A stretch of DNA of 64,000 nt, taken from NCBI GenBank assembly GCA_032622095.1, contig CP136064.1:174290310-174354309 (forward strand), in the 5' to 3' direction. Positions 2,971 to 58,645 of this stretch are shown here, piece by piece. The translations under genes were made by a program, and so were the position numbers. The notes beneath the pieces are model-generated. The model was not told the origin of the DNA. It was given only the letters and a program-made list of their open reading frames with translations, and did no database searches. Positions within the stretch are counted from its first letter, which is position 1. Each line of letters starts with the position of its first letter. The DNA is from Siphonodentalium dalli. Lineage: Eukaryota > Mollusca > Scaphopoda > Gadilida > Siphonodentaliidae.

Positions 2971-5900
2971 GTGAGTCTTGTCTAATTTATGTCCAATTTG
3001 AGTGCCCTTGTTATTGAGAAAATTGACTGTTCATTCATTCATACATATTCATTTCATTTAATCTGAAAATTAAAGTGAAATATTTAAATTATTTATGTAG
3101 CCATTATTGATTGTATTCTGTCAGTCAGGGGTGCCGGGTAGACGGCCGTCATTGGCCATGGCACTACACACAATACTACGAAAATAAATTCACTTATATT
3201 AAGATGTTTTAATGTATTGTGAAATTATCCTTATATGCAGTAATGCCCTAAATAATCGACTCCTTAACCACAGCAGATTTATGGGTAATTTTTCAGGATT
3301 TAGTCGGAAATAGTGAGAGCTTTCCGATGAATGGCAACAAGCCATATTTCTGACTAAATCCTGAAAAAATACCCATAATTCTGCTGTGGTTAAGGAGTCG
3401 ATTATTTAGGGCATTACTGTAATTGTTCCAGGCCTCAGAATATGGTGCCGGACATTTGCAGAATGAGGTTCCCAGAAGGTGAATTTAGTGACGTTACCTT
3501 GCACAGCAACGCCAAATTCATCCTCTGGGGACCTAATTATGCATGACCTCATCTGTTATGGGAGACCTAGACTCAGATTTAAATTCCCAGATGGTGATGT
3601 GCACCCATTAGGCTCCTCGATTATGCATTGTGTCATGTGCCAATTTGGAGATATAGAGAAACTAAAGACTAAAAAAAGAAAAAGAAACTTCTAAAGAAAT
3701 AATTAAAGCACTTGTTAATTTGATAATAAAGATACATTCCAGAGTCTGAGAAGATGAGGCCTAAGCAGACTGAGGTCCCCAGAGGGTGACTTTAGTGATG
3801 CTAGCCTGCTGTGCTGGGTAGCATCACTAAATTCACCCTCAGGGGACCTCATTCTGCTAATGTCCAGCACTGTATTTTGAGGCCTGAATTGTTCGGGAGC
3901 ATACTGTCTTGTAATCCATGTCACATGAATCTGTAATATATTATCAGTATGGATTTGATGTTCACTTGTAGGGTTCATTAGCAGCTTGTGAATTTCTTCT
4001 ATTGAATGGTGCTAAACTTGATAGGAAGGATCGGAATGGTCGAACTCCACTGCATCATGCTACAGAACACGGTAATACAGGGTAAGTTAGTGTCAAGTTC
4101 ATACCACAACCACTTCAATGTAAGGCCAAATTCTGCTCAGGGGAGAAACAGTTTATTGATTCATTTGTAGTCAGAGTTCAATCCACTTTATAATTGGTTA
4201 GCCCCAGAGTTTTATCTGTACACTTTGGATGCAATGAAGGGGGTTCACTCTGGACAAAACATTCTGGATTCTTGAATATTTTTCAGAAACTTTCGCCAAA
4301 TTTAAAAAACAAAATTGTTGAGAAAAAACCAAAACTAGAAAAAACAGTAGAAAAAGGCGTTCCCAAGAAACAAAATAATTGAACCAACATAAATTTAAAT
4401 ATGTACTGATTTGGTTATTGTTTGCCGTAATGTATTAGTGATACAACACAGCAGATTAATATTGACAGTTGATTAAGAAAGAATGCCGTAATAGCACATA
4501 ATCAGCAGTGTTGTGATAAGGATGGGCAACTTCTGGTATATAGTTATCCAAACGTACAGGGGTGAACAGGTACAGTACTGATAACCTATTAACCCTTCCA
4601 TGACTGGAGCTTCCTGAAATTTTGCGAAAATCCTGTGCCAATGCATTCTCTTATATATGCGAGTCTCCCCTAGGAAGCATAGAGAGCCTCACCAGCGCAG
4701 CTCCCGTCATGAAAGGGTTAAGAATAATACTAGAGAGCCTCACCAGCGCAGCTCCCGTCATGAAAGGGTTAAGAATAATACTAAGTTTGAACATTATCCT
4801 AAGGTTTCTTTCTGATTTCAGGCAAGTGTGTCAGTTCATAAAGCGAGGTGCAGATCTATCATCACAAGATTCTAGTGGCCAGGTGAGTATGCTTGAAGGG
4901 AAAAGTCATGTGATTTATGTGGTTCAGTCCACTGTCAAGGTGGTCCGGTCCGGTCCATTCCATTCCAGTACCCATGCCTTGACCGGTCCGAAGCGGTCCG
5001 GTCCACTTATATGTTTATGAATTGCACGTTTTACTCAAAGTTGTTGCCCTATAAATTAAAAAATATAGTTTACTGCATTGCAATAAGTGCATATTCAATT
5101 TTTGCAATTGTGTAGTATTGTCTGTCTCTGGTTGCAAGGACACACTGTAATGACACATGCAGTAATGCGAATACACACTATTATATATATTAAAGATGCG
5201 AACATACATGTAGGGTCAGTATGCATTTATAAAGAATCTAACATGGCAGTCAACTGATCGTATTGACTCTAGTCTGCAGGCACATTGTTTGCTGGATTGG
5301 TTGACTGCCATGTTACACTGCTTATGAATGCATACTCACCCTGGCTGCATTTTTGTCACACTGGTAGAGTAACTAGTAGTGTTGGTGTCGGATAGTAGTT
5401 ATTAAAACACAATTTAGAATGAAACAACATATTTTCATATATTTGAGAATGTTGGCATTTGCAAACAAAGTTAACTAAATGGCACAGGTAATATCTCTGA
5501 TAATATCACAACAGTACTCAACATAACAACGTCTTCCTGACACTTCGGGAGAATCAAGTGTCACACATGTATATTTATTCATCAGGTAATAATATTTTAA
5601 TATTTGGTTAACAAAACTGATGTTTCAATTTGTTTGTGTCTGTCAATCATCATTCCAGACTTTGATCTTTGAAAAGGCTCGTGCGACACATGCAGTCACC
5701 CCAGTATTTGTTTTGACAGACTACCAGCACTGAAACAATGTCACGAGTTAAAAGTAGTCTGAAATTGGTGACATCAAAGCACGTGGCTGCCCACATTGTC
5801 GCGCCTCATTCAACAGAATCGTTCACACGTGCAGATGCAAATGGGGATAGTGACATATATACATTGTTTTGGTGGCATCATTATTTGACTATTAACCACT

Positions 5901-8900
5901 TGAACCCATTAATACATCATTGCTAATTGTACATGCCTGTTGGGACAAATACGCAATAAATTTGCGATAGTTAGCTCAATGTAAAATAGTGGACCGGACC
6001 GGAAAGTACCAGGCTGGGGGTGTAAACCGATCCGAAGTTGACATGGCAACACACATTAAAAGATACACATATGTGTGGCTAAACCGGGCTCTTATCTGAT
6101 ATATGTCTATTGCTTTTATGTGTAAATAAATTCCGCATGTTATTATTACATATATTTTATATTGACCTATTTTCATCGCCGGTACATAACAAAAGTGACA
6201 AATTGAGAAAGTGAAGATTAAGGGTAATGCTCATATTTTTTCTTCTTTCAGGACCCTCTGGCAATAGCAGTACATGCTGCAGATGCAGACATTGTCACAC
6301 TGTAAGCAGATATTTATACCCCCACTTTCGAAGAAAATGGGGGGTATACTGGATTGACTGCGTCCGTCCGTCCGTCACGCTTTCTCCGTCCGTTTGTCCG
6401 TCCGACCTCATAACTCGAACAACTATGAACCGATTTCAATAATTTTTTGTATGCAATCTCCTTAGGACGGTCTCTCCGCATGATGCTAATTGCGGTTCGG
6501 TCCGACTTTTTTTTTTCTTCAAGTTACGCCTCTTTTTCGACTTATTTTAACTTAGAAAATTCTTTCTGACTTAATAACTTTAACAAATATGAACCGATTT
6601 CAATAATTTTTGGTATACATGCTTCTCACAATAGCCTCTCTACATGATGCGGCTAGGGATTGGCTCAGACTGTTTTTCGTAATATTACACCTCATTTTCG
6701 ACTTATTTTGACTTAGAAAATTCTGTCTGACTTAATAACTTTAACAAATATGAACCGATTTGAATAATTTGTTCTGTACAAGCTTCTTGTGACACCATAT
6801 CGATATTATTAGTCCGAATTTTTCTTTAAAGTTAAAAATCTTTTTGGTTGAGTTTACGGATAATGCGGGTTGAATTTGCCATGGTGGGGGTATGCTAGCA
6901 CTCGAGTGCACACCTCTTGTTGTCTCTATATCTCAATTTTATCTCACACCCAGTCTGTGTAAACATACAATCAGAGTCATACTGACATACTCAGCGCCAT
7001 TACTTGAGTAGTTACATAGTCGGGTTACCAACACAGATGACAATATTCGATCAAAGGAGTATTTATTGGAAAGAGACAATGATACACGTGGTCAAGATTT
7101 CCGACCAAAACCAAGAGAGAGAAAACCTGGTTTGTTATAATAGAGACCGCTATTGGACGGTCACACACAATACAACCAAACACAGTCTCGACTCGATACA
7201 ACCCACTGGCGCAGTCTATCGTAGTCTCATCGAAAAGTCATTTCTTGGAAGTATGCAGACTTCCCCAAAATGTTGTCACATCGTGTTACATTAATCACTA
7301 CGATTGGACACTTTTATTTTGGGGCTACTAATAGTGAGTTCTGATTGGCGCTACTGACGTGGAATCATGTGGTTTGAGAAATAGAAAAGAAGTTAACTAC
7401 AGTTAACTACAGACCAACATAGAAATAGAGGGTCTGATTACCTAACTTAAACTGTCTCCCATCCTTCTCCCAATTCAAAGATGTAGAAGAAGGTGACTGG
7501 CAAATGGTGAATTGATGAGACTACTTGAGCAATCAATAATGAGGGGGCTGATTGACAGCATGTCATTTTCAACTTCATGGATCTGTTCCGAAACAACCTG
7601 AGTTTATCGCTTATTTAATTCTATCTTCTACTTATGGTGGTTCTCTTGCAAATGACGGATTAAATTAAATATCCCTTGTTTCGATTAATGTTTATATGAG
7701 AACTTTAGACTACAGGCATTATAGAATTTGTCTTCAAACTTTATGGTTATAAATGCACGAGTTATTTCTTATATATTATGATTCTTATTACGCCACCGTA
7801 GTGTGGTGTTTATTGCTTTTGGTTTTTTTGTATCGCATGGGCGATCGATAATTCACTGGGTGATTGTACATTCGGCAAACCTCGTCAGATTCCGTCACCG
7901 TTTCATCGTACCGATAATTACGAGAGTACAACTAAGATTGGCACATGTGTTTACGTCACCGGTGTAATTGTGGGGACATGCTTCTATTATGAAGGTTTGC
8001 TATCCCGAAGGTCCGCTATTCCGAAGGTTCTCTATTCCGAAGGTTTTTGTTATTTTTAGGTTAATTCTATATTTTAAAGTATTGAGACTAATTTGAGAGG
8101 GTTCATTTTCACAAAGATTCTTTATATGGAGTGTGCGCTCACATCCGAACTGATCATGCGCGCACACCGATACAGATACAGGAGGAAATAACTTAACTTA
8201 GAACATTAAATGTGATTTTGTTTTGTTTTCGCTGGTTTTCTTGAGATTTTATGTCATTACGTGGGCCCATACCTTTGAATTCTTGGCATATACTATGAAT
8301 GTTGTGGTATATATGGACCCTCCCGCATTGGGACATGACATAGGTTCAGTTGACTTAAGTGGTGTTCTGTGTGTGCTCCAATTTGGAGTTCATTATTTTA
8401 AGGGCCAAGTTTAGAATTTTTTTTGGTCCATACCTTTGAACTCTGGGCATATAATATGAATATTGGGGGGCATGGCTCTATTCCGAAGGTTCACTATCCC
8501 GAAGGTCCACTATTCCGAAATTTCTCTGAATGTTCGCTATTCCGAAGGTTCACCAATCCGAAGGTTCGTTATTCCGAAGGTTCTGTGTTCCAAAGATTTT
8601 TTTTATTTTAAGGTTAATTCTATATTCTAAAGTAACGAGAGGGTTCATTATCACGAAGATTCTTTTGATGAAGGAAATAACGTAAAACATTAAATGTGAT
8701 TTTGTTTTGTTTTCGAGGGTTTTCTTGAGTTTAATGTCATTACGTATGACCTTATTTCTCATTACATATTCACGCCAAGGAGCCCACACAATTGCTATGT
8801 TACGATGCGATTTAATGTGATTATGTGTGACCTAATATCTCAATAATCTGAGGCAAGAGTACGCCTGCTAAAGGCGAATTATAACAGTTGGGGGTATAAC

Positions 8901-11700
8901 GCTCAATAAATACTGGAGGCTATAACAAACTGCGCAGTAGAATATCGCTGAATGGACGAGTATGAGATGAGCCTAAATGCAATTGTGACTTTGTTTAAAG
9001 GCCCACTTAATTTTCGAGTCATTAATTTTTTATAGTATATACGGTTTTAATAACAATTTATGCCATAAAATTTGAATAAACTACTATAATTCATCACCAT
9101 TTGAAAGGCAGAATACTTCTATCTCCTAGTTTGAAACACCTTCAAAATACCGCGTCGTATATCTAGCAATTAGCAACCAACATGTCCTCCTCGGCTTTCC
9201 ATAGATTTCAACGTAATTTGATACCTATGGGTATTTGTGTCCGGGAAGTGTTTTGAACGGGTCAAATCGTGACCCCGACCTGACCTTGACCTTTAAAACT
9301 GTCAATGCAAGGTCAATTTGGGTAAAACGGACAAATTTCGGCGAAATTTGATACTAGGGATACTTTGGTCTGAGGAGAGTTTTGAACGGGTCAAATCGTG
9401 ACCTCGGCCTGACCTTGACCTTCAATATGGCCAATCAAAGGTCAACTCGGATAAAACGGATAGATTTCGACGAAATTTGATACCTATGGGTACTTTTGTC
9501 GGGGGGGGGGGGTGTTTTGGACGGGTCAAATCATGACTCTGACCTTACCTTGACCTTCAAAATTGTTAATTAAAGGTCAAGTTGGGTAAAACGGACGGAT
9601 TTCGACGAAATTTGATACCTATGGGTAGTTTTCTACGGGTGGGGGTGTTTTGGACTGGACAAATCATGACCCTGACCTGACCTTGACTTTCGAAATAGTC
9701 AATTGAAGGTCAAATCGCACCTTTCACCGGAAAGCAGATGTGAAACAGCCCGGGTGAAGTCGGGCCTATCAGCTTGTGTAATAAAGAAGACAGTTTGATG
9801 AAAGTAATGTATGCCACGAGAAACGGGAAAACTTGAAATATGGAAGTACGCAAATTTCCCGCATAAAATTTGAAAGCTAGTTTATAGAATAATTGTATTA
9901 TTATTTATATTTATGGCTAATAATACGATCTTGGTGGCGTTACCATTTCTGACTATGGTTTTCTTGTCACTTACTGGTACTCGTTCTTCTTCTCAGGCTA
10001 AGGTTGGCTAAACTGAATGAAGAGATGAAAGCATCAGATTCATTTGGAAATCCAGGTGAGTTTTAAAATCCAAATCAAATTCACATACTACTGTAAAATC
10101 CTTTTAATTCGTGGGGGTCTATTATTTATTGATTTCGTGGTTTGGGCCACCCATGAAATCAATACCCAACAAAATATTGACTCTTGAGTTGGTAGAGCAA
10201 TTATCAATATGCGAGATGGAAACAATGAATCTAACAATGAATTTAACCATTTTCTTGCTATATACTCATTGACGAGTAGTTCCTTAACCCTTTACCCAAC
10301 AGAACGGCCCTGTGCCAATGCATTCTCTTATATATGCGAGTCGACCATAGGTCGCCTCGCATATATAAGAGAATGCATTGGCTTAACACATTAAAAATTA
10401 TAAAATTGTTAAAGAATGTAAGAAAAAATGGTAAAAAGTGTTAAAAAATTTTTTTTTTTAGGCCAATGCATTCTCTTATATATGCGAGGCGACCTATGGT
10501 CGACTCGCATATATAAGAGAATGCATTGGCACAGGGCATAACTGTAACTATCACAATGTGGTCAAGGAGCCGGTTCCAATGATATCCATATTTGTATGGT
10601 TTTATTGAGACAGACCGAAGATATTTTAGGCTGTTGAAGCTTTATTTGGCTGGTTTTGGCCGGTTTGTTGGGTAAAGGGTTAAGGATATGTTCACAAGAA
10701 ACAAAAGTTTGTTGAACTTATTATCTGAATATTTCCCATCAAAGAATATGAATGTATTAGCTTTTCATGTGTTTGTCGTCTGTCTTATTATCTGAACATC
10801 CCTCCAAATGAATAATAGACCATTCCAATGTATACATTTACAACTGAATGGGAGAATCGATTTAGTAAAGAAATGTTTACAGATCTATTCAAGGTCCTAA
10901 CCATTTATGTGATGACAAATTTTTATATAATTCAGTGGAATGTCTCAATGAAATATGATTCGAACTACATGTCAATAATCTGTCTATGTAAACATACTCT
11001 CAGAGTCATACTGAGTCTATCGTAGTCTTGTCGAAATGACATTTCCTGGAAGCGAGCAGACTTCCCCCAAATCACACCACACCGTGTTACGTTAATCGAT
11101 TCAATTTTACACTTTTATCTTGGAACTACTAATAGTGAGTTCTGATTGGCGCTACTGACGTGGATTCCCATGGATCGGAGAAATAGAAAGTATATGACAA
11201 GTAATCAGACCCATTATTTATTATTTTTAGCCATGCAAGTCCTTAGAATTATCTTAAATATTGTTGATATATTGGAGACAATATAAAATCTGGAGCGCTG
11301 AATACAACCAAGCCTGCAAATATGGTGTGTCATTTTGTATACTATCCTGCACAGCAGGCTAGCATCACTAATTTCATCCTCTGGGGATGGGATATAGAAA
11401 CTTCCCAGAAGGGAAAAAGTAACTAAAAACAATGAAAATTTTAGACTATAGATACTTTCCAGAAGATGAGGCCTAAGCTGAATGAGGTTACCAGAGTTTA
11501 TTGATACAAAATTCACCATCTGGGTACCTCATTCTGCAAATGACAGACAAACTATTTGCCGGCTTGAATACAATGAAATATTTTGACCTTATTACATGTG
11601 AGTAACTTCTATTGCAGGTGATGAAACATTCAATGATGTCTTCAGAGACTTCACCAACATGGCATCAAACAATCCAGAGAAACTCAAAAGAAAGACTTGA
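2738..11700 (+). CDS. ACAP2: ACAP2-like Arf GTPase-activating protein, 3' part (six exons, C-terminal ankyrin repeats)
   Basis: Joined coding segments are 2738-2970, 3972-4081, 4822-4882, 6252-6301, 9997-10055 and 11618-11700 (about 197 residues, then TGA). Seen: all five introns have GT/AG ends and the phases fit (0, 2, 0, 2, 1). The product runs through an acidic Ser-rich linker, LLYKAAEARNLPVM, three ankyrin repeats (TPLMKVVETGSLAACEFLL; TPLHHATEHGNTGQVCQFI; DPLAIAVHAADADIVTLL) and a tail with FRDF and MASNNPEKL. Known: ACAP1-3 proteins are BAR-PH-ArfGAP-ankyrin proteins that stimulate GTP hydrolysis on Arf6 at endosomes and the plasma membrane, and the ACAP2 ankyrin repeats bind Rab35. 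The order and tail resemble human ACAP2 as I remember it. Inferred: the BAR, PH and ArfGAP exons lie 5' of the window. Invertebrates usually have one ACAP, so orthology to ACAP1, 2 or 3 is not resolved. Confidence 0.93.
3238..3419. mobile_element. Palindromic mariner-type MITE in ACAP intron a
   Basis: The ends are CAGTAATGCCCTAAATAATC and its complement, and the arms pair almost to the centre, with a Tc1/mariner-like CAGT terminus. The right flank is TA (3420-3421); the left flank TG is probably a mutated TA. Other copies are at 15951 (half), 16633-16822 and inside the 4-kb elements at 43373, 43548, 51589 and 60019. Confidence 0.85.
3429..3886. mobile_element. hAT-type MITE, 458 bp, with 8-bp target duplication
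   Basis: The TIRs are CAGGCCTCAGAATA on the left and CAGGCCTCAAAATA on the reverse-complemented right. AATTGTTC flanks both ends (3421-3428 and 3887-3894), the 8-bp duplication typical of hAT elements. Each end carries a hairpin centred on GAATGAGGT(C/T)CCCAGA. It sits directly against the mariner-type MITE. Sister copies are at 11309-11566 and 17041-17499. Confidence 0.85.
3972..4081 (+). CDS. ACAP2: ACAP exon b: ankyrin repeats 1-2
   Basis: The acceptor AG is at 3970-3971 and the donor GTAAGT starts at 4082. It continues in phase from exon a with GSLAACEFLLLNGAKLDRKD and then the canonical ankyrin motif GRTPLHHATEHGNTG. It ends in phase 2, giving a Gly codon split across the intron. Confidence 0.93.
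4589..4772. mobile_element. TTAA-flanked hairpin element next to ACAP exon c
   Basis: The left end is TTAACCCTTCCATGACTGGA and the right end is the near complement, CCCGTCATGAAAGGGTTAA. The interior carries one arm of the shared hairpin core (GCCAATGCATTCTCTTATAT, 4636-4660) and the other arm is lost. The right end lies about 50 bp upstream of the exon c acceptor. Confidence 0.75.
4681..4782 (+). repeat. 51-bp exact tandem duplication
   Basis: The 51-bp unit starting AGAGAGCCTCACCAGCGCAG at 4681 is repeated from 4732 with no differences seen. It duplicates the right end of the TTAA element with its TTAA flank, so the element now has two right ends (4718-4721 and 4769-4772). Confidence 0.9.
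4822..4882 (+). CDS. ACAP2: ACAP exon c: end of ankyrin repeat 2
   Basis: The acceptor AG is at 4820-4821 after a T-rich tract, and the donor GTGAGT starts at 4883. It encodes QVCQFIKRGADLSSQDSSGQ, matching the family's QVCLFLKRGA segment as I recall it, and ends in phase 0. Confidence 0.92.
4943..5005 (+). repeat. GGTCCGGTCC block, with an inverted partner at 5991-6003
   Basis: GGTCCGGTCCGGTCC occurs twice around 4943-5005, ending GCGGTCCGGTCCAC. The complement GTGGACCGGACCGG begins at about 5990. The two face each other across roughly 985 bp of ACAP intron c, which could be the termini of an old element. No target duplication is evident. Confidence 0.45.
5211..5343. repeat. Short inverted-repeat element (133 bp) in ACAP intron c
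   Basis: The left arm TAGGGTCAGTATGCATTTAT...AACATGGCAGTCAAC pairs with the right arm; the reverse complement of the right end starts CAGGGTGAGTATGCATTCAT. The arms are about 45 bp around a 40-bp loop. It is MITE-like, with family unknown and no clear target duplication. Confidence 0.7.
6252..6301 (+). CDS. ACAP2: ACAP exon d: ankyrin repeat 3
   Basis: The acceptor AG is at 6250-6251 after TTTTCTTCTTTC, and the donor GTAAGC starts at 6302. It encodes DPLAIAVHAADADIVT plus two bases of a Leu codon (phase 2). At 50 bp it is easily missed by open-frame searches. The short frame that starts upstream at 6227 is in a different register. Confidence 0.9.
6311..6900 (+). repeat. Dispersed repeat D, copy 1: TATACC hairpin, GTCC run and tandem ~162-bp modules
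   Basis: It begins with the hairpin TATACCCCC (6317) to GGGGGGTATA (ending about 6353), followed by GTCCGTCCGTCCGTC runs. Three modules carrying ATGAACCGATTT follow at 6425, 6589 and 6750 (spacing 164 and 161 bp), and it ends near GCACTCGAGTGC. It starts 10 bp inside ACAP intron d. Relatives lie at 18235 and 22896, and in reverse within the satellite array. Confidence 0.75.
6961..7392 (+). repeat. Dispersed repeat E, long copy
   Basis: AAACATACAATCAGAGTCAT at the start and GTGAGTTCTGATTGGCGCTA near the end are shared with 10989-11195. The copy at 10989 lacks about 220 bp of the middle (7000-7200 here). There is no coding potential and the class is unknown. Confidence 0.7.
7985..8760 (+). repeat. 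CCGAAGGTT minisatellite blocks within a duplicated segment
   Basis: TATTCCGAAGGTTC-type 14-bp units occur at about 7990-8050 and 8470-8600. Each is followed by a similar stretch (AGGTTAATTCTATATT...ATTAAATGTGATTTTG, about 8057-8260 and 8610-8750). The whole is a diverged tandem duplication of roughly 500-600 bp inside the 7791-9966 element. Confidence 0.75.
9211..9720 (+). repeat. ~130-bp tandem repeat, four copies
   Basis: AATTTGATAC recurs at 9215, 9345, 9474 and 9609, with GACCTGACCTTGACCTT and AAGGTCAA blocks in each unit. The units are clearly diverged from one another. It forms the tandem core of the 7791-9966 element and has no coding sense. Confidence 0.85.
9997..10055 (+). CDS. ACAP2: ACAP exon e: start of C-terminal tail
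   Basis: The acceptor AG is at 9995-9996 after a TTCTTCTTCTC tract, and the donor GTGAGT starts at 10056. It completes the split Leu codon and encodes LRLAKLNEEMKASDSFGNP, matching the LLRLARMNEEM segment of the ACAP family, then ends in phase 1. A transposon end lies only 30 bp upstream (see 7791-9966). Confidence 0.9.
10284..10683. mobile_element. TTAA-flanked element (400 bp) with two perfect hairpin cores
   Basis: Perfect 18-bp ends, TTAACCCTTTACCCAACA and its complement. Two hairpins of about 69 bp (10314-10382 and 10462-10530) have near-perfect 33-34-bp arms starting GCCAATGCATTCTCTTATAT, and the second is in opposite register at its loop. It lies in ACAP intron e. The class is probably a piggyBac/Kolobok-type MITE on the basis of TTAA. 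Confidence 0.85.
10709..10868 (+). repeat. Dispersed repeat C, copy 1
   Basis: Shared with 16849-17026 and 17858-18039. Common blocks include TTCCCATCAAAGAATATGAA-like, GTTTGTCGTCTG, CCAAATGAATAATAGACC and GGGAGAATCGATTTAGTA. No ends are defined and the class is unknown. Confidence 0.65.
10989..11195 (+). repeat. Dispersed repeat E, internally deleted copy
   Basis: It matches both ends of 6961-7392 but lacks about 220 bp of the centre. The end block ACTACTAATAGTGAGTTCTG is nearly identical in both. Confidence 0.7.
11309..11566. mobile_element. hAT-type MITE, shorter sister of 3429-3886
   Basis: The ends are CAAGCCTGCAAATA and, reverse-complemented, CAAGCCGGCAAATA. The flanks AATACAAC (11301-11308) and AATACAAT (11567-11574) agree at 7 of 8 bases, fitting an 8-bp hAT duplication. 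It retains both GAATGAGGT-type hairpins but has lost interior sequence. It lies about 50 bp upstream of the terminal exon acceptor. Confidence 0.78.
11618..11700 (+). CDS. ACAP2: ACAP terminal exon f
   Basis: The acceptor AG is at 11616-11617. It encodes GDETFNDVFRDFTNMASNN followed by PEKLKRKT and TGA at 11698-11700. The family tail (DETYQDIFRDFSQMASNNP, from memory) is matched closely. The last residues after PEKL are short compared with vertebrate ACAP2. The 3' UTR is not delimited: a hAT-type element starts 46 bp after the stop, and I see no compelling polyadenylation signal before it. Confidence 0.93.
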
Positions 11701-14943: not shown

Positions 14944-15950
14944 AAATACAATAAATCACTTGTTTTGACAGAAATTCCTGAAATTGTTCAAGGCATTAAA
15001 TATACCATTCCAAAAACTTTACATGTAATGGATTGTCCCAAATATTAGCTAAAATGACACCTGAATTAGTTTACATTTCTGGTAGAATAGTAAAAAAGTC
15101 ATCATTTCACTAAATATCTTAGTAGAAAAAAGAGGAAAAAAACTAAATATTCCTCCACAAGATTTATGCTTCTTTCAGTTTTATATGAAATTAATTTGCT
15201 GCGATCATAAAAAAACCTCATATTAAATTCAAGGATTTTCTATAGCCTGTTGGCATTTGTATTTTTTATCCACATTTTGACATTATTTGTGATATGTTTG
15301 TGACGTTTCTACACATCTCAGTTCGTAGAACTACTCATTGAGATTACACCTCACTCTGTTAGGTCATGACATAAAATACTTCACCATGTTTTCTTGTATT
15401 GTCGCAGGTTGTGCCAGTGCTTTGTCTCAGTTTCAGTATTATTCAATCATACTTTATCATGATATATGCTAATCACAGGGGTATTTGTGTATAATTAGAC
15501 TACTATAATACGTCAGAAAACATTTCATCTATCTGACCGATAAATAATAATTTTTATGCAGAAATTGACTGACTAACATCTCAATGCATAGTCGCTTTTT
15601 ATAAAAAAAAAACTGTAGTGAAAATTTCACTCAATTATACAGCGCGATTAAAAACATTTTTCATATCCAGTAAATGATGGTTCCCATCGAGTCAATCCTG
15701 TTGTATTCATAGCTGTAATTGTTATTTTTGGGAAAGGTCTATTCTAGCCTTGCTCCCCAAAATTGGTCTTTGTCTCATATTATGAAAGTGTTTTGTATCA
15801 ACCTTCCACATTAGTTCTCTGCAAGTATTATAGTCAAGCCTGTATACCTTACCTACATATTACTCATATGCACCAATAACTATAGCTATGTTCACATAAC
15901 ATTTCCCCGGAAGCAGAATCATGGAATCGGAACTTGCAGCTTTCTGGCCA
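14944..15950. other. Intergenic, nothing recognised
   Basis: AT-rich sequence without a gene, repeat or RNA that I can support. Confidence 0.5.
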
Positions 15951-16140
15951 ACAGTAATGCCCTAAATAATCGACTCCTTAACCACACCAGAATTATGGGT
16001 AATTTTTCAGGATTTAGTCGGAAATATGGCTTGTAGCCATTTATCGGAAAGCTCTCATTGGCCTAACAATATTTACCTTGACCTTGTAAGCCAGTGTATT
16101 CTCATATATGCAAGGCTCCCCATGGTTATTCACACACATA
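15951..16140. repeat. Half of a mariner-type MITE joined to a reversed hairpin-core fragment
   Basis: 15951-16058 matches one arm of the TA-flanked palindrome (ACAGTAATGCCCTAAATAAT onward), and the other arm is missing. It runs directly into sequence matching the reverse complement of about 2411-2520 (CCTAACAATATTTACCTTGA). A second insertion or a deletion has joined the two. Confidence 0.7.
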
Positions 16141-16632
16141 AGACAATCCATCTTTAATGATGCAGGTTAATAACTCTCCTATAATGAGATATTGCATGCA
16201 AAAACCATTGTTATGTAAACATTACCGATAAAAGTCCAATTCATCCAATAAAGATACGAAAGTTTAATCAGAACTTAACAGTAAACATTGGAAAATGTCA
16301 CAGCATTGAAAAATATTCAGAAAATCATATTCAGACTAAAACAGTTTAACTTAACACACGTTTAGCAATATTCACTATCAGTTTTGTTAACATAATGGTT
16401 TCAACATGCAATATTTTGTTTTTGGAGAACTATCAATATTAATGAATAATAAAGAGCAAATCTATTTCGCCATGTTCTTCTTAGTGGTGATGTTTTTTTT
16501 TACATAATTATATATTGTTTGCACATTTACCCTGGGTCGCTTTAAGGATGAACCGATCTATAACCAAGACTGAGTTCACTTGCTTCTCTCTCATCTGGTG
16601 GTAGCCATTTTCTGAAATACTCATTTTATGAG

Positions 16633-16822
16633 TACAGTAATGCTCTTAATTAATCGACCTCTTAACCACAGCAGAATTATGGGTAACTTTTCAGGATTTA
16701 GTCGGAAATATGGCTTGTTACCATTCATCGGAAAGCTCTCGGCCATATTTCCGACTAAATCCTGAAAAGTTACCCATAATTCTGCTGTGGTTAAGAGGTC
16801 GATTAATTAGAGCATTACTGTA
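16633..16822. mobile_element. Full palindromic mariner-type MITE
   Basis: It runs from TACAGTAATGCTCTTAATTA to its complement, with TA at both outer edges (16633-16634 and 16821-16822). The arms pair over nearly their whole length around CATCGGAAAGCTCTC. Confidence 0.87.
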
Positions 16823-16848
16823 ATTCCCTTATAGGAAATTTTCAGATA

Positions 16849-41700: not shown

Positions 41701-41998
41701 TAACAAGAAAACCATAGTCAGAAATGGTAACGCCACCAAGATTATAGTATTACATATAAATAGAAATTATAAAAAAATACATAAAATATTTTAATAACAA
41801 TTGCGTTTAAACAAGTAATCCTTCAAATTATTACTAACAAAGCAAGTAAATGACTGTGGGGCCACTCAACAGATTATAAAGACTTGGACTTAGTATACTG
41901 TAAATACTGGGACTGTATATTTTTTAATTTTAATCTAAAATTTAAATGAAATAATTAAAAGGTAAAATTTAGCAAGTAGTAAAAATTAATTTTCTCAT

Positions 41999-42590
41999 TT
42001 AAAGGTGTACTGTACGCCAAATGTTGTTGTTGGTTTCTATAGTCTCCGAGTCGGAGAATAAGGTAACATTTTTTTCAATATTTGAAAGTCTGTTGAGTAC
42101 GAAGTAGTGTTACGGATGACAAATTTACCGGAATGCAAAAATACAAATTGTCGTTGTCGAGTAATTTTTGTACAGTTTTCAACCAAATGAATCAAATAAA
42201 AGTTATATTATAGGCATACTAGTCCCATATAATTATTTTTAGTTATTGTATCATCGCTAGTAGGTGAGTGGCTTGAGTGTTCTCCCCGTATCATCATAAT
42301 ATTTTAAGCGATCGTGTGTGCGATCGGTTTAACAGTCCAGTATCCCTCAATTACTTTGTTTGATTAGGGAAATTCGTAATTTAATTGACGCCATTTTATG
42401 GCTCCAGTCATAAATTCAATTTATATCAAATTATTAACTTTTAAATTATTAAATTTTAAGATAGCCTATTAACCTGAGCGTTTAAAGAATACATCTTCGA
42501 CTCAAATTACTTATGTTTCTATATATTATCGATATTAGATCGTTGTTGTCACCGGAAATTTAATGAAAATGGCGTACAGTACCCCTTTAA
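41999..42590. mobile_element. Nested TTAA element (592 bp) in copy 1
   Basis: TTAA, then AGGTGTACTGTACGCCA at the left, and TGGCGTACAGTACCCCT-type sequence with TTAA at the right. The TIRs are about 16-18 bp. The same insertion is present in copies 2 and 3, so it predates the macro-duplication. No transposase frame. Confidence 0.75.
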
Positions 42591-43280
42591 TTTTTTGTTT
42601 TGTTAAATAAAGCAATAATTTAAATGTAAAATTTGGTTTTAATAAAATTATTGACCGTGGCTCTTCCAATAATTGCGCGACTGACCTGGTCAATTGTTCT
42701 TAAGAAGTTGTTTTGAGAATTACTTTGGAGGGAAATAGTTATGGCTGTGGCTTCGCAAGTAATTGACTTGGTGACGTGATGTTAACAAATCTGAACTCCA
42801 GTAAACCAAGGACGCTCCATACCAATTATAAGGTAAATAAATAATTCTTTAGAAGTTGTTTTAAGATTTACTATGGATGGAAAGAATTGTGGTGCTGGCT
42901 TCGCAACTATTTGACCCCATTGTAACAAATATAGATATTAGTCACTCTGGTCACTCAGGAAATAGATGTATCTATTCTGTATATTAAGTTATTGCCCGGG
43001 TCTTACGTGTCTTGAGATGTCTAAATACGTTTTGATGGACAGATCGCGCAAGCGCAAGGGACCCCCGCCAATCTTCTCTGTTGTGATTCCAATTGTTGGC
43101 TTATTAAATATGCACATATGTTTAAGAAACAGTCGCGCGCGAAGCGCGCTCCCGTAGGTCGGTTTTTGGATCCCAGTTAATGAAAATATCATTGAAATAA
43201 TCGGTTTCCCCCCCCCCAATAAACATCCATATATCCAACATACATGTTTTTGGAGCAGAATTAGGTAGACCATATTGGAC

Positions 43281-43682
43281 GCCATAATTCTGCTGTGGTT
43301 AAGTGGTCAATTACTTTGGACATTACTGTATGTAGATGGAGTTATCATTAGACCTCACATCCTTATATGGGATACAGTAATGCCCAAAGTAATTGACCAC
43401 TTAACCACATCAGAATTATGGGTAATTTTTCAGGATTTTAAATCCTGAAAAATTACCCATAATTCTGCTGTGGTTAAGTGGTCAATTACTTTGGACATTA
43501 CTGTATGTGGATGGAGTTATCATTAGACCTCACATCCTTATATGGGCTACAGTAATGCCTAAAGTAATTGACCAATTAACCACAGCAGAATTATGGGTAA
43601 TTTTTCAGGATTTAAAATCTTGAAAAATTACCCATAATTCTGCTGTGGTTAAGTGGTCAATTACTTTGGACATTATACTGTA
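43281..43682. repeat. Tandem mariner-type palindromes in copy 1
   Basis: A right half (43281-43330) is followed by two full palindromes (43373-43505 and 43548-43682), each TA-flanked. They are separated by the same spacer (TGTAGATGGAGTTATCATTA onward). Unit plus spacer is about 175 bp, so this is a tandem expansion of one insertion with its flank. Copies 2 and 3 have one full palindrome fewer. Confidence 0.85.
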
Positions 43683-45826
43683 TGTAGATGGAGTTAAACC
43701 TCACATCAGTGTGTTGGACATTTTGGACCTTGACTTGGGACCTTTGGTTTTTAACGCAACAAATGCGAGTACACCTTATACACAAATTTCTGATGTAGCC
43801 AGAGTTTTTCTTGGATAATATGAGTTTGAAGCCTGCTTACATTTCAAAATGTTGTCAGTTTTGTATTGTCTGCACCAGAACTCGGCGCGTTGAAGCAAAA
43901 GTTATAGGAGATAAAATGTGTATGTAACGAGACTATAATACAAATGAAAAAAATAAATTGAGGGAGGGGTGGGCATTACAGGGAACTAAGGGTTGAACCG
44001 ATATAAATTTGTAGAGCGATAACGACCAATGTTGACATATTATGCATCTCAACTCTACTGTTGCAACAAGGTTAAAAAATAGGGGGGTGTCAGAATCTTA
44101 GTCATCTCTATATAGTGCCAGAATAGTCATTTATGGACTTCTATACTCTATAGTGGTACAATACAAATTAGAATAAAATGATAAAAATATGTATGTAACA
44201 CAACTATACCGATGAAAATAAAAATAATAATTTAGGCCGGGATAAGATGTTGGGTTGGTTATATGGACTTGGAGAAAAAGGGGTTCGTACCGATGAACTG
44301 ACATAAATTAGTGGAGCGATGTTGCCATGTAATGCATCGCGACTGTACTAAAGCAGCAATGATATAAAATTGGGAGGGGGAGGGGTCAGAAATTATCTCT
44401 ATCTCTATAGATGGCACCAGAATTATATAGAAAGGAATAGCAATTGATATACGTATACGGTGTACTATAGTAATACCATAGACATATAAGTACAAGTATC
44501 ACGCATTAAAATATTTCGTAACGTGACTATAGCGATGAAAAAAATAAATAAATTGGACCGGGATTAGAGGTTGGGTTGGTTATATGTAGATAATTGGATA
44601 TGGAATTCATACCGATGAAATGATACAAATTAGAGGAGCGATAAAGACCAATGTTGACACTTAGTCAGGCTACGCGGGGGAAATAGGGGTTGATACAATA
44701 GACCGAAATAAATTTGTCGAGTGATAATGACCAATGTTGACGTATAAAGTAACGCGACTGTACTGTCGAACAATTATCAGGTAGAACCGGTCAAATATGG
44801 ACTCTGGTGCCCAATATGGAACAGCTCAGAAAACATTTGAAGGGCCCTAAAATTTATTTAACATGGGATCTGCCATACAAATCGATTTATGTTGATAAAT
44901 CTCTTATTTTTCAAAATTTTAAGCTGAGACTTGGTGTGTCAGCGTGGGATACTTATATATTCCTAAAATGATAGGGTACAGCACATAATTATGTTTTAGG
45001 TGGAAGAAATCATTTTTTTTCGATGATAAAATTTAACATGGGATTTGCAATTAAAATCGATTTATGTCGATAAAACTGTCATTTTTCAAAATTTTGAGTT
45101 GAGAATTCGTGTGTCTGTGTGTAATACTTATATATTCTTAAAATGACAGAGTTCAGCGCGTAATTATGTTTTAGATGGAAGAAATTGAATTTGTTTTCGA
45201 TAACAAATTTACAGCATGTACGGCCGTACTACGGGTTTATCGAGTACGCTATTTTATAAACAAACTTTTGTCAATAGCCGTTTTGGTCAAACTAAACCTT
45301 TTTCGACCGGGACAGCAGATCCGAATAGTAGCTAAGATGTATTTAGATAGAATTATCAAAAGAATTTGACCGATTAGGGTGCATTTTAAAAGAATCGAGT
45401 GGAGAAATATTGCTGACATTTTCATAAAACACGCCGATAATTCCAAAAGATAAAAGATGGCGGTTATCACAATAGAACAGGCATAATATTACCCATAATT
45501 CACCTCACTATACCAGGGGGCTCCCAATGGGTTATATATTATTTTCAGGCTATCAGATTATTTATATTTTTAATAACATATTATTACACCGGTGACTTTA
45601 AGATTACAATTTCAGCCTGTCCTGACTATCAATACGATTGAGTCATATTTTCAAAAACATATTATACACCGGTGGTGTTAACTTTACAATTTCAGCATCT
45701 ATGTGATTCTATCGGTACGATTTGAGTAAGGTACAAAAAAAAACAATCTTCGCCCACTCGACCACAGAATTAGAGACTACCACTGAATATGAAAAACAGC
45801 AACACTAGAAACACCACATGGTGGCG

Positions 45827-48800
45827 TAATGAGATCTGTCCTGTCTATAATGTGGAATACCAAATGAAAGAACAAAAATAATGAAATTTAAATCAGTGCA
45901 AAAACAAGATATACTGTCGTCCGGTGCATACATTGAGCAGATGCCATTGAATGTCCTTATAGTGGTGAACATCCATACCAAATATCATTGAGAACCGAGC
46001 ATTATTGTTCAAGTTATGTCCTGAAAAGACATCAGACAGACCAAAAAACCAACATTTCCAGATAAACAAAGATGAATAACTCTAGAATGAATAATCTGAA
46101 CAAAACGATGGAATATTCTACTGAGTATACTCATAGTAGGGAACATCCATACCAAATTTCATTCAGAACCGAGCACTATGGCATGAACAGACATTGGGCG
46201 GATGTATGTACGAACGTCCGGACAGACAGATGCAAAACAATATACCTTTTTTAAAAAGGGGCTATAACAATAACCAGACATTTAATTCGCTGCGTTATCT
46301 TGGATGTGGCCATCTTCTGTATGCTTCCGAGTATCTGAAATATTGTACCCTCTCCAATCTGGAAGACAAAACAGAATGACAAAAATAATGAGATCTGTCC
46401 TGCCTAATGTGGAATACAAAATGAAAGAACAAAAATAATGAAATTTAAATCAGTGCAAAAACAAGATATACTGTCGTCCAGTGCATACATTGAACAGATG
46501 CCATTGAATGTCCTTATAGTGGTGAACAACCATACCAAATTTCATTGAGATCAGAGCACTACGGTTCAAGTTATAACATTGAACAGACATTGGGCGGATG
46601 TACGAACGCATGTCCAGACAGACACGTGCAAAACAATATACCCTTTTTTAATAAGGGGCTATAATAATAACCAGACATTTGATTCGCTGCGTTATCTTGG
46701 ATGTGGCCATCTTCTATATGCTTCCGAGTATCTGAAATCTTCTACCCTCTCCAATCTGGAAGACAAAACAGAATGACAAAAATAATGAGATCTGTCCTGT
46801 CTATAATGTGGAATACCAAATGAAAGAACAAAATAATGAAATTTAAATCAGTGCAAAAACAAGATATACTGTCGTCCGGTGCAAACATTGAGCAGATGCC
46901 ATTGAATGTCCTTATAGTGGTGAACATCCATACCAAATATCATTGAGAACCGAGCATTATTGTTCAAGTTATGTCCTGAAAAGACATCAGACAGACCAAA
47001 AAGCCAACATTTCCAGATAAACAAAGATGAATAACTCTAGAATGAATAATCTGAACAAAACGATGGAATATTCTACTGAGTATACTCATAGTAGGGAACA
47101 TCCATACCAAATTTCATTCAGAACCGAGCACTATGGCATGAACAGATATTGGGCGGATGTATGTACGAACGTCCGGACAGACAGATGCAAAACAATATAC
47201 CTTTTTTAAAAAGGGGCTATAACAATAACCAGACATTTAATTCGCTGCGTTATCTTGGATGTGGCCATCTTCTGTATGCTTCCGAGTATCTGAAATATTG
47301 TACCCTCTCCAATCTGGAAGACAAAACAGAATGACAAAAATAATGAGATCTGTCCTGCCTAATGTGGAATACAAAATGAAAGAACAAAAATAATGAAATT
47401 TAAATCAGTGCAAAAACAAGATATACTGTCGTCCAGTGCATACATTGAACAGATGCCATTGAATGTCCTTATAGTGGTGAACAACCATACCAAATTTCAT
47501 TGAGATCAGAGCACTACGGTTCAAGTTATAACATTGAACAGACATTGGGCGGATGTACGAACGCATGTCCAGACAGACACGTGCAAAACAATATACCCTT
47601 TTTTAATAAGGGGCTATAATAATAACCAGACATTTGATTCGCTGCGTTATCTTGGATGTGGCCATCTTCTATATGCTTCCGAGTATCTGAAATCTTCTAC
47701 CCTCTCCAATCTGGAAGACAAAACAGAATGACAAAAATAATGAGATCTGTCCTGTCTATAATGTGGAATACCAAATGAAAGAACAAAATAATGAAATTTA
47801 AATCAGTGCAAAAACAAGATATACTGTCGTCCGGTACATTCATTGAGCAGATGCCATTGAATGTCCTTATAGTGGTGAACATCCATACCAAATATCATTG
47901 AGAACCGAGCATTATTGTTCAAGTTATGTCCTGAAAAGACATCAGACAGACCAAAAAGCCAACATTTCCAGATAAACAAAGATGAATAACTCTAGAATGA
48001 ATAATCTGAACAAAACGATGGAATATTCTACTGAGTATACTCATAGTAGGGAACATCCATACCAAATTTCATTCAGAACCGAGCACTATGGCATGAACAG
48101 ACATTGGGCGGATGTATGTACGAACGTCCGGACAGACAGATGCAAAACAATATACCTTTTTTAAAAAGGGGCTATAACAATAACCAGACATTTAATTCGC
48201 TGCGTTATCTTGGATGTGGCCATCTTCTGTATGCTTCCGAGTATCTGAAATATTGTACCCTCTCCAATCTGGAAGACAAAACAAAATGACAAAAATAATG
48301 AGATCTAGCTGTCCTGCCTAATGTGGAATACAAAATGAAAGAACAAAAATAATGAAATTTAAATCAGTGAACAGACATTGTGCAGATGTACGCACGCATA
48401 TCTGGATAGACAGTTGCAAAACAGTATACCCTTTTTTATAAAAGGGGCTATAACGATACCCACTGACATTGCTTCGCTACATTATCTTGGATGTGACCGT
48501 CTTCTGTATCGTTCCGAATATCTGACATCTTCTATCCTCTCTAATCTGGAACACAAAAGAGAATGACAAAAAAATGAGATATATCCTGTCTAATCTGCTA
48601 TACAAAATGAAAGAACAAAACTAATGAAATTTAAATCAGACCAAAAACAAGATATACTGTCGTCCGGTGCATATATTGAACATATGCCATTGAATGTCCT
48701 TATAGTGGTGAACATCCATACCAAATTTTAATGAGATTCGAGCATTATTGTTCAAGTTATGTCCTGAACAGACATCAGACAGACCAAAAAGCCAACATTT

Positions 48801-49924
48801 CCAGATAAACAAAGATGAATAACACTAGAATGGAAAATCTGAACAAAACGATGGAATATTCTACTGAATATACTCATAGTAGGGAACATCCGTACCAAAT
48901 GTCATTGAGATACGAGCACTATGGCACGAACAGACATTAGGAGGATGTACGTACGAACGTCCGGACAGACAGATGCAAATCAATATACCTTTTTTTAAAA
49001 GGGGCTATAATATTAATCACAGACATTTGATTCGCTGCGTTATCTTGGATGTGGTCATCTTCTGTATGCTTCCGAGTATCTGAAATCTTGTACTCTCTCC
49101 AATCTGGAAGACAAAACAAAATGTTAAAAATGATGAGATCTGTCCTGTCTAATGTGGAATACAAAATGAAAGAACAAAAATAATGAAATTTAAATAAGTG
49201 CAAAAACAAGATATACTGTCGTCCGGTGCATACATTGAACATATGCCATTGAATGTCCTTATAGTGTTGAACATGCATACCAAATTTCATTGAGATCCGA
49301 GCACTACGGTTCAAGTTATGACATGAACGAATATTGGGCGGATGTACGAATGCACGTCTGGACAGACAGGTGCAAAACAATATACCCTTTTTTGAAAAGG
49401 GGCTATAATAACCACAGACATTTGGTTCGCTGCGTTATCTTGGATGTGGCCATCTTATGTATACTTCCGAGTATCTGAAATATTCTACCTTCTCCAATCT
49501 GGAAGACAAAACAGAATGACAAAAATAATGAGATCTGTCCTGTCTAATGTGGAATACAAAATGAAGAACAAAAATAATGAAATTGAAATCAGTGCAAAAA
49601 CAAGATATACTGTCGCCCGATGCATACATCGAACAGATGCCATTGAATGTCCTTATAGTGGTGAACACCCATACCAAATTTCATTGAGATCAGAGCACTA
49701 CGGTTCAAGTTATAACATTGAACAGACATTGTGCGGATGTACGAACGCATGTCCGGACAGACACGTGCAAAACAATATACCCTTTTTTAATAAGGGGCTA
49801 TAATAATAACCAGACATTTGATTCGCTGTGTTATCTTGGATGTGGCCATCTTCTATATGCTTCCGAGTATCTGAAATATTCTACCCTCTCCAATCTGGAA
49901 GACAAAACAGAATGACAAAAATAA
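45827..49924 (+). repeat. Satellite segment between element copies 1 and 2
   Basis: The same dimer as the main array, with a clean 955-bp period at 46072, 47027 and 47982. It is followed by more diverged units from about 48370 onward (variants such as GCACGCATATCTGGATAGAC). The right end returns to consensus before the next element at 49925. Confidence 0.93.
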
Positions 49925-50217
49925 CAAGAAAACCATAGTCAGAAATGGTAACGCCACCAAGATTATAGTATTACATATAAATAGAAATTATAAAAAAATA
50001 CATAAAATATTTTAATAACAATTGCGTTTAAACAAGTAATCCTTCAAATTATTACTAACAAAGCAAGTAAATGACTGTGGGGCCACTCAACAGATTATAA
50101 AGACTTGGACTTAGTATACTGTAAATACTGGGACTATATTTTTAAATTTTAATCTAAAATTTAAATGAAATAATTAAAAGGTAAAATTTAGCAAGTAGTA
50201 AAAATTAATTTTCTCAT

Positions 50218-50809
50218 TTAAAGGGGTACTGTACGCCAAATGTTGTTGTTGGTTTCTATAGTCTCCGAGTCGGAGAATAAGGTAACATTTTTTACATTAT
50301 TTGAAAGTCTGTTGAGTACGAAGTAGTGTTACGGATGACAAATTTACCGGAATGCAAAAATACAAATTGTCGTTGTCGAGTAATTTTTGTACAGTTTTCA
50401 ACCAAATGAATCAAATAAAAGTTATATTATAGGCATACTAGTCCCATATAATCATTTTTAGTTATTGTATCATCGCTAGTAGGTGAGTAGCTTGAGTGTT
50501 CTCCCCGTATCATCATAATATTTTAAGCAATCGTGTGTGCGATCGGTTTAACAGTCCAGTATCCCTCAATTACTTTGTTTGATTAGGGAAATTCGTAATT
50601 TAATTGACGCCATTTTATGGCTCCAGTCATAAATTCAATTTATATCAAATTATTAACTTTTAAATTATTAAATTTTAAGATAGCCTATTAACCTGAGCGT
50701 TTAAAGAATACATCTTCGACTCAAATTACTTATGTTTCTATATATTATCGATATTAGATCGTTGTTGTCACCGGAAATTTAATGAAAATGGCGTACAGTA
50801 CCCCTTTAA
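50218..50809. mobile_element. Nested TTAA element in copy 2
   Basis: TTAA-flanked, with AGGGGTACTGTACGCCA and its complement at the ends. Same insertion site as 41999-42590. Confidence 0.75.
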
Positions 50810-51588
50810 TTTTTTTTTGGGTTAAATAAAGCAATAATTTAAATGTAAAATTTGGTTTAAAAAAAATTATTGACTGTGGCTCTTCCAATAATTGCGCGAC
50901 TGACCTGGTCAATTGTTCTTAAGAAGTTGTTTTGAGAATTACTATGGAGGGAAATAGTTATGGCTGTGGCTTCGCAAGTAATTGACTTGGTGACGTGATG
51001 TTAACAAATCTGAACTCCAGTAAACCAAGGACGCTCCATACCAATTATAAGGTAAATAAATAATTCTTTAGAAGGTGTTTTAAGATTTACTATGGATGGA
51101 AAGAATTGTGGTGCTGGCTTCGCAACTATTTGACCCCATTGTAACAAATATAGATATTAGTCACTCTGGTCACTCAGGAAATAGATGTATCTATTCTGTA
51201 TATTAAGTTATTGCCCGGGTCTTACGTGTCTTGAGATGTCTAAATACGTTTTGATGGACAGATCGCGCAAGCGCAAGGGACCCCCGCCAATCTTCTCTGT
51301 TGTGATTCCAATTGTTGGCTTATTAAATATGCACATATGTTTAGGAAACAGTCGCGCGCGAAGCGCGCTCCCGTATGTCGGTTTTTGGATCCCAGTTAAT
51401 GAAAATATCATTGAAATAATCGGTTTCCCCCCCAATAAACATCCATATATCCAATATACATGTTTTTGGAGCAGAATTAGGAAGACCATATTGGACGCCT
51501 TAATTCTGCTGTGGTTAAGTGGTCAATTACTTTGGACATTACTGTATGTAGATGGAGTTATCATTAGACCTCACATCCTTATATGGGC

Positions 51589-51723
51589 TACAGTAATGCC
51601 TAAAGTAATTGACCAATTAACCACAGCAGAAGTATGGGTAATTTTTCAGGATTTAAAATCTTGAAAAATTACCCATAATTCTGCTGTGGTTAAGTGGTCA
51701 ATTACTTTGGACATTATACTGTA
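51589..51723. mobile_element. Mariner-type palindrome in copy 2
   Basis: TA-flanked CAGTAATGCCTAAAGTAATT and its complement, with arms nearly perfect. A preceding half copy ends near 51545. Confidence 0.82.
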
Positions 51724-53854
51724 TGTAGATGGAGTTAAACCTCACATCAGTTGGACCTTGACTTGGGACCTTTGGTTTTTAACGCAACAAATGCGAGTAC
51801 ACCTTATACACAAATTTCTGATGTAGCCAGAGTTTTTCTTGGATAATATGAGTTTGAAGCCTGCTTACATTTCAAAATGTTGTCAGTTTTGTATTGTCTG
51901 CACCAGAACTCGGCGCGTTGAAGCAAAAGTTATAGGAGATAAAATGTGTATGTAACGAGACTATAATACAAATGAAAAAAATAAATTGAGGGAGGGGTGG
52001 GCATTACAGGGAACTAAGGGTTGAACCGATATAAATTTGTAGAGCGATAACGACCAATGTTGACATATTATGCATCTCAACTCTACTGTTGCAACAAGGT
52101 TAAAAAATAGGGGGGTGTCAGAATCTTAGTCATCTCTATATAGTGCCAGAATAGTCATTTATGGACTTCTATACTCTATAGTGGTACAATACAAATTAGA
52201 ATCAAATGATAAAAATATGTATGTAACACAACTATACCGATGAAAATAAAAAAAATAATTTAGGCCGGGATAAGATGTTGGGTTGGTTATATGGACTCGG
52301 AGAAAAAGGGGTTCGTACCGATGAACTGACATAAATTAGTGGAGTGATGTTGCCATGTAATGCGTCGCGACTGTACTAAAGCAGCAATGATATAAAATTG
52401 GGGGGGGAGGGGTCAGAAATTATCTCTATCTCTATAGATGGCACCAGAATTATATAGAAAGGAATAGCAATTGATATACGTATACGGTATACTATAGTAA
52501 TACCATAGACATATAAGTACAAGTATCACGCAATAAAATATTTCGTAACGTGACTATAGCGATGAAAAAAATAAATAAATTGGACCGGGATTAGAGGTTG
52601 GGTTGGTTATATGTAGATAATTGGATATGGAATTCATACCGATGAAATGATACAAATTAGTGGAGCGATAAAGACCAATGTTGACACTTAGTCAGGCTAC
52701 GCGGGGGAAATAGGGGTTGATACGATAGACCGAAATAAATTTGTCGAGTGATAATGACCAATGTTGACGTATAAAGTAACGCGACTGTACTGTCGAACAA
52801 TTATCAGGTAGAACCGGTCAAATATGGACTCTGGTGCCCAATATGGAACAGCTCAGAAAACATTTGAAGGGCCCTAAAATTTATTTAACATGGGATCTGC
52901 CATACAAATCGATTTATGTTGATAAATCTCTTATTTTTCAAAATTTTAAGCTGAGACTTGGTGTGTCTGCGTGGGATACTTATATATTCCTAAAATGATA
53001 GGGTACAGCACATAATTATGTTTTAGGTGGAAGAAATCTTTTTTTTTTCGATGATAAAATTTAACATGGGATTTGCAATTAAAATCGATTTATGTCGATA
53101 AAACTGTCATTTTTCAAAATTTTGAGTTGAGAATTCGTGTGTCTGTGTGTAATACTTATATATTCTTAAAATGACAGAGTTCAGCGCGTAATTATGTTTT
53201 AGATGGAAGAAATTGAATTTGTTTTCGATAACAAATTTACAGCATGTACGGCCGTACTACGGGTTTATCGAGTACGCTATTTTATAAACAAACTTTTGTC
53301 AATAGCCGTTTTGGTCAAACTAAACCTTTTTCGACCGGGACAGCAGATCCGAATAGTAGCTAAGATGTATTTAGATAGAATTATCAAAAGAATTTGACCG
53401 ATTAGGGTGCATTTTAAAAGAATCGAGTGGAGAAATATTGCTGACATTTTCATAAAACACGCCGATAATTCCAAAAGATAAAAGATGGCGGTTATCACAA
53501 TAGAACAGGCATAATATTACCCATAATTCACCTCACTATACCAGGGGGCTCCCAATGGGTTATATATTATTTTCAGGCTATCAGATTATTTATATTTTTA
53601 ACAACATATTATTACACCGGTGACTTTAAGATTACAATTTCAGCCTGTCCTGACTATCGATACGATTGAGTCATATTTTCAAAAACATATTATACACCGG
53701 TGGTGTTAACTTTACAATTTCAGCATCTACGTGATTCTATCGGTACGATTTGAGTAAGGTACAAAAAAAAACAATCTTCGCCCACTCGACCACAGAATTA
53801 GAGACTACCACTGAATATGAAAAACAGCAACACTAGAAACACCACATGGTGGTG

Positions 53855-58352: not shown

Positions 58353-58645
58353 CAAGAAAACCATAGTCAGAAATGGTAACGCCACCAAGATTATAGTATT
58401 ACATATAAATAGAAATTATAAAAAAATACATAAAATATTTTAATAACAATTGCGTTTAAACAAGTAATCCTTCAAATTATTACTAACAAAGCAAGTAAAT
58501 GACTGTGGGGCCACTCAACAGATTATAAAGACTTGGACTTAGTATACTGTAAATACTGGGACTATATTTTTAAATTTTAATCTAAAATTTAAATGAAATA
58601 ATTAAAAGGTAAAATTTAGCAAGTAGTAAAAATTAATTTTCTCAT

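Follow-up and report, generated by a model that had tools for sequence, protein, structure and literature searches.

The element in an intron of the ACAP gene and the 4.1-kb element carried by a satellite array in the same window (the whole 64,000-nucleotide stretch of the Siphonodentalium dalli contig CP136064.1 that was analysed) very probably belong to the same terminal family of non-autonomous Helentrons (HINEs) with ends of the Helitron2 type, whose autonomous partner would lie elsewhere in the genome; we put the probability of this reading at about 0.86. It is based on inverted repeats that are placed asymmetrically, potential hairpins at both ends, a clean insertion into a satellite site that is also found empty, the lack of recognisable coding in the ORFs scanned and the tandem repeats of the interiors. 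Counting against it are the shortness of the exact inverted repeat (6-9 bp), the ambiguity of the target TT and a 3' hairpin that is no more stable than those of shuffled sequences. The copies, and the 5' end blocks by which the family can be recognised, are as follows.

7788-9966, plus strand: ACAP-intron element, a HINE-like, putatively non-autonomous Helentron copy; ends in common with the satellite copies, flanks not
41704-45829, minus strand: satellite copy 1, the 4.1-kb relative; 5' end at 45829, 3' end at 41704
49925-53857, minus strand: satellite copy 2; 5' repeat with one G to A difference
58353-61996, minus strand: satellite copy 3, without the 5' end; other DNA from 61997
5' end blocks of the terminal family: TTACGCCAC...GTGGTGTTT

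The 3' ends are the more strongly conserved. The 18-mer CAAGAAAACCATAGTCAG has four matches in the window at a tolerance of 3 mismatches, where shuffled sequences lead one to expect 0.01, and all four are exact (9949-9966 on the minus strand; 41704, 49925 and 58353 on the plus strand). The last 34 bp are identical (34/34) across all four copies, and between the ACAP and satellite elements 65 of 75 positions agree, or 53 of the last 60. By BLAST the 3' end is found in the window with an E value of 1.3e-20 over 76 bp, and in the comparison of the ACAP element with copy 1 with an E value of 3e-18 (65/75). The 5' ends are similar and not identical, reading TTACGCCACCGTAGTGTGGTGTTT in the ACAP element, TTACGCCACCATGTGGTGTTT in copy 1 and TTACACCACCATGTGGTGTTT in copy 2. 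The 16-mer ACACCACATGGTGGCG occurs exactly at 45811-45826 and with one mismatch at 53839-53854; since 0.33 matches are expected at up to 3 mismatches, it is weak evidence alone. The first 24 bases of the 5' ends align with a 3-nt gap; before it, the ACAP element and copy 1 have 10 identical bp of the repeat. The BLAST alignment of these two 5' ends matches at 54 of 80 positions with gaps (E 0.004), and their local score of 33 was reached by none of about 20,000 40-mers drawn at random from the window, where draws near the 5' ends of the elements were skipped.

A reading of this DNA from the sequence alone had proposed that the two loci share both ends around different interiors, and the 3' identity of 65/75 together with the 5' score of 33 bears this out. 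Its statement that the ends are found as complements is exact for one of them, CAAGAAAACCATAGTCAG at 9949-9966; the other end has no exact complement, as TTACGCCACCGTAGTGTGGTGTTT and TTACGCCACCATGTGGTGTTT differ. The constant edge at CAAGAAAACC was also confirmed: similarity stops there, and an ungapped comparison of the 60 bases beyond each edge gives 20/60 and 21/60 identical positions, which is near the chance level for AT-rich DNA. Within the edges, the next-best BLAST match of the ACAP element to copy 1 has an E value of only 0.2, so that the interiors do differ as proposed. Judged from their sequences, the ACAP and satellite types are old relatives, because even the 3' end is only 65/75 alike. 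As the common part is limited to some 24 bp at the 5' end and 75 bp at the 3' end, unrelated interiors could be carried between these ends.

It could be argued that the ends are a repeat from some other source, such as a captured segment or fragments of separate origin, and that the loci are not complete elements. That only the short ends are common, around interiors without significant likeness, would suit such an origin, which is nevertheless scarcely credible: each locus has both ends, which are oriented to one another in the same way, and the 4.1 kb between the exact edges is missing from 46 satellite monomers. These monomers carry the uninterrupted site CAGAATGACAAAAATAATGAGATCTGTCC at up to 4 substitutions, and 37 of the 46 are exact over the 29 bp tested. 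Half-sites broken by the element number three on the left and two on the right, a count from which a right half at 56205, beside a variant left half, was left out. The empty site reads GACAAAAATAATGAG; in the filled site GACAAAAATAA is followed by the element, from CAAGAAAACC to GGTGGCG, and then by TAATGAG. The search for empty sites that the sequence-only reading had called for thus succeeded within the window itself, and these 46 paralogous empty sites are clean proof of the element edges.

The satellite insertion has TAA on both sides and the empty monomer has one TAA, as would be expected from a duplication of 3 bp but also from an element that brings its own TAA without duplication. The triplets of the ACAP copy differ from one another, with TTA at 7788-7790 and TCA after 9966, and weakly favour an element with its own TAA and no duplication. 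Both this and the target reading come from two independent insertions (n=2). For the target, the satellite site, taken on the strand complementary to the empty monomer (CTCATTATTTTTGTC), allows A^T or T^T, and the ACAP site allows A^T or T^C.

The check proposed in the sequence-only reading, to look for a 3-bp TAA/TTA duplication, implies a cut-and-paste transposase. MITEs of the PIF/Harbinger type have inverted repeats at their true termini and a 3-bp TWA target duplication. A derivative of such a transposon would account for the TAA on both sides of the satellite insertion against one TAA in the empty monomer. However, the ACAP triplets do not agree (TTA against TCA), although one later mutation could explain this, and the termini that the element would have on this model, CAAGAAAACC at one edge and at the other the complement of CGCCACC, do not form an inverted pair. 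A MITE-like origin is therefore improbable, and the duplication is not shown: the TAA/TTA repeat is present at only one of the two independent insertions, and a duplication is not required to explain it.

The HINE reading also places the ACAP element somewhat differently from the 7791-9966 first proposed. The 3' edge at 9966 stands; the 5' edge is better set at 7788, and the TTA that had been noted at the edge becomes part of the end structure. The element is then 2.18 kb long, with edges that are ambiguous by up to 3 bp. Likewise, the ACAP and satellite copies do lie on opposite strands, and by the Helitron2 convention it is the ACAP copy that runs 5' to 3' on the plus strand and the satellite copies that run on the minus strand, so that the former is not the reversed one. 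The structures at the two ends of the ACAP element are given below.

7788-7797, plus strand: 5' asymmetric terminal inverted repeat TTACGCCACC, of which ACGCCACC matches the 3' copy exactly
7790-7809, plus strand: potential 5' hairpin, stem of 7 bp ACGCCAC/GTGGTGT, loop CGTAGT; DNA fold -4.0, with 3.4% of 1000 shuffles as low
9933-9942, plus strand: 3' subterminal inverted repeat GGTGGCGTTA, 24 bp inside the 3' edge
9942-9959, plus strand: potential 3' hairpin ACCAT(TTCTGACT)ATGGT, then TTTCTTG to the edge; fold -2.0; placed as in Helitron2

The outermost bases are not mutually inverted; of the two copies of the repeat, the 5' one is terminal and the 3' one lies 24 bp from its edge. When the first 30 nt are compared with the last 45, the longest stretch of exact inverted identity measures 8 bp in the ACAP element; in copy 1 it measures 9 bp and in copy 2 it measures 6 bp. 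A match of 8 bp was reached by 7 of 3000 shuffles, yet by 40 of 3000 random pairs of places in the window. The 7-bp stem of the 5' hairpin is present in all three copies that keep a 5' end, with 0.4-3.4% of 1000 shuffles equally stable. Satellite copies 1 and 2 have the same stem as ACAP around a loop that reads CAT, and a G-T pair of copy 1 is A-T in copy 2. The energy of the 3' hairpin is unexceptional, being matched by 14.6% (ACAP) and 17.5% (copy 1) of 1000 shuffles.

This arrangement is that of Helitron2. In the available part of its description, the repeats are 8-15 bp long, the 5' repeat lies 0-2 bp from the end and within a hairpin, the 3' repeat immediately precedes a hairpin at a distance of about 20-30 bp from its end, and the preferred first base is T (PMC3627910). 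The elements here have in common with it the asymmetric repeats, the 5' terminal repeat in a hairpin, the 3' repeat before a potential 3' hairpin and the first base T. They differ in not showing the TTTT^T/C target that Helitron-1N1_CRe has, and autonomous Helitron2 members, as far as that part goes, encode Rep/helicase, which is not seen here (PMC3627910). Of the targets listed in the portion of PMC5148889 at hand (A^T for Helitron1, TTTT^T/C for Helitron2 and TT for Helentrons), that of Helitron1 can be read at both insertions. A derivative of a canonical Helitron (Helitron1) would explain this reading, and a potential hairpin near the 3' end is also present. It is, however, very improbable, as the ends are TTAC and CTTG here and not the 5'-TC and CTRR-3' of Helitron1, and the inverted repeat and 5' hairpin seen here are absent from Helitron1 according to the accessible section of PMC3627910.

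HINEs, in the part of PMC4067079 that was available, combine subterminal repeats with a 3' palindrome and central repeats, and their T-rich targets are left without modification. The naming rules given there place elements in one family when they have at least 11 bp of identical subterminal inverted repeats, and in one subfamily at 80% or more over the last 60 bp. In comparison with DINE-1 and the HINEs of that source, the inverted repeat here is shorter than the 11 bp of the family rule, and the 3' repeat is at 24 bp where the mite HINEs have it 38-60 bp from the end (PMC4067079). There is also a likeness to the Cg_HINE elements of Crassostrea gigas and to the Pearl elements of bivalves. According to the part of PMC7492417 to hand, HINE interiors account for the 13 clusters of satellite-like arrays that are most abundant in the oyster assembly, Cg_HINE group 2 has unrelated repeats between related ends, and the bivalve Pearl elements have been re-categorised as non-autonomous Helentrons. 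Common to these elements and ours are the subterminal inverted repeats, a potential 3' palindrome, the central satellite-like repeats, copies in the non-coding parts of genes and, for group 2, unrelated repeats enclosed by related ends. The likeness is one of build. With 8-9 bp, the exact inverted repeat here is shorter than the 11-12 bp of Cg_HINE. The satellite-borne copy further differs in its mosaic interior of 4.1 kb, and for Cg_HINE this part of the source reports no target duplication (PMC7492417). The build of the CvA element is given in the portion of PMC5874043 available, where it is not called a Helitron. Literature searches with the letters of the repeat gave no relevant paper by title or start of abstract among the matches listed, and searches on HINE or Helentron with satellite and intron gave no title naming this case among the matches listed. 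The kind of element is already known and the phenomena are already in print; the family is new.

Central tandem repeats, a frequent but not an obligatory feature of HINEs, are present in both types. Those of the ACAP element, where minisatellites had already been remarked upon, were located as follows.

7984-8045, plus strand: 16-bp minisatellite with unit GAAGGTTCGCTATTCC, from a tandem-repeat search
8478-8595, plus strand: further stretch of the 16-bp minisatellite, within a larger duplication (7967-8262 against 8462-8745)
9203-9717, plus strand: central tandem array, 3.9 copies of 135 bp

The interior of the satellite copies has two 175-bp arrays and other duplications. Within the 175-bp tandem repeat at 43282-43696 lies a fold-back repeat that has relatives at 3227-3421 and 16621-16833, while one arm alone is found at 15945-16016; it seems that a fold-back element became the tandem repeat. 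A nested element lies at 41999-42590, with inverted ends of 21 bp with one mismatch (AGGTGTACTGTACGCC...) and, by eye, TTAA on both sides. Elsewhere in the window, at 4680-4783, 51 bp are duplicated exactly head-to-tail.

The satellite itself, which took up the 4.1-kb element, extends from 23283 to 58352; its unit is about 399 bp long and its higher-order period about 958 bp, position 28798 being matched to 29756. All copies are at the identical satellite position, and where copies 2 and 3 align with copy 1 they are 98.1-99.2% alike to it. In copy 3 the segment 59928-61996 is 99.2% alike to 43457-45525 of copy 1, and the match stops there. The starts of the copies are spaced 8221 and 8428 bp apart, and the likeness continues into the satellite (48356-53553 against 56784-61996, 98.5%). 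Because of the common position, the likeness of 98.1-99.2% and its continuation into the satellite, the sequences suggest that there was probably a single insertion, later multiplied with the array to three places.

The host of the other copy is ACAP, as had been proposed: the ankyrin exon matches the ACAP2 and ACAP1 PDB chains with E values of 4e-9 and 7.6e-7. The exon downstream of the element, reading LRLAKLNEEMKASDSFGNPG, resembles the ACAP C-terminus. By eye, the splice acceptor AG is at 9995-9996, some 30 bp past the 3' edge of the element. The CTGAC at 9949-9953 in the 3' hairpin is a possible branch-point sequence. A role in splicing is not claimed for the element, as the host CTTAC at 9970-9974 would, by eye, serve equally. 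No Rfam family reached its gathering score anywhere in the window.

The scanned ORFs were 30 in number, picked out of overlapping lists of 87 and 29, all of them unspliced reading frames. None of the 10 element ORFs (8 from copy 1 and 2 from the ACAP copy) reached a curated Pfam cut-off, nor did any of 20 further window ORFs, which include one in copy 2 and another that overlaps the end of copy 3. Sub-threshold matches to EPSP_synthase (0.25), TMIE (0.41), Neurexophilin (0.2), Nuclease_act (0.031), CAAD (0.094) and LIM (0.026) were judged to be due to chance. There is accordingly no Rep/helicase domain or other recognisable mobilising enzyme among these 30 ORFs, in agreement with the earlier description of a non-autonomous family. 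When a collection of viral and prokaryote DNA was searched with exact patterns of the 3' end, the 16-bp minisatellite, the 135-bp repeat and the satellite there was no match, which says little for an animal element. A match of a 20-base 3' pattern in Parapedobacter defluvii was set aside; about 0.5 such matches are expected in 257 billion bases if composition is ignored, and the TATGG of the hairpin does not come next in it.

Because of the end type, the mobilising enzyme should be a Rep/helicase, to whose Rep (HUH) and helicase domains Helentrons add an endonuclease, rather than a DDE transposase. Under the HINE reading, an autonomous Helentron elsewhere in the genome would supply the Rep/helicase protein, which would nick at the 5' end. 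One strand would then be peeled off through rolling-circle replication, and replication may halt once the 3' repeat, with the hairpin behind it, has paired with its 5' counterpart. The strand would be inserted without target duplication. A further and rather doubtful suggestion is that these elements represent a Helentron lineage with Helitron2-type ends and yet with A^T insertion, in which only about 100 bp of the ends are constrained, interiors including nested transposons are exchanged, and one element was amplified with a satellite array.

The pair of ACAP and satellite elements leaves current understanding unchanged. What had appeared to be an orphan transposon family with swapped interiors becomes a recognisable Helentron/HINE, and this names the class of its enzyme. 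Two cases are added besides: a satellite that has taken up and multiplied a HINE, and a HINE that lies about 30 bp from a splice acceptor.
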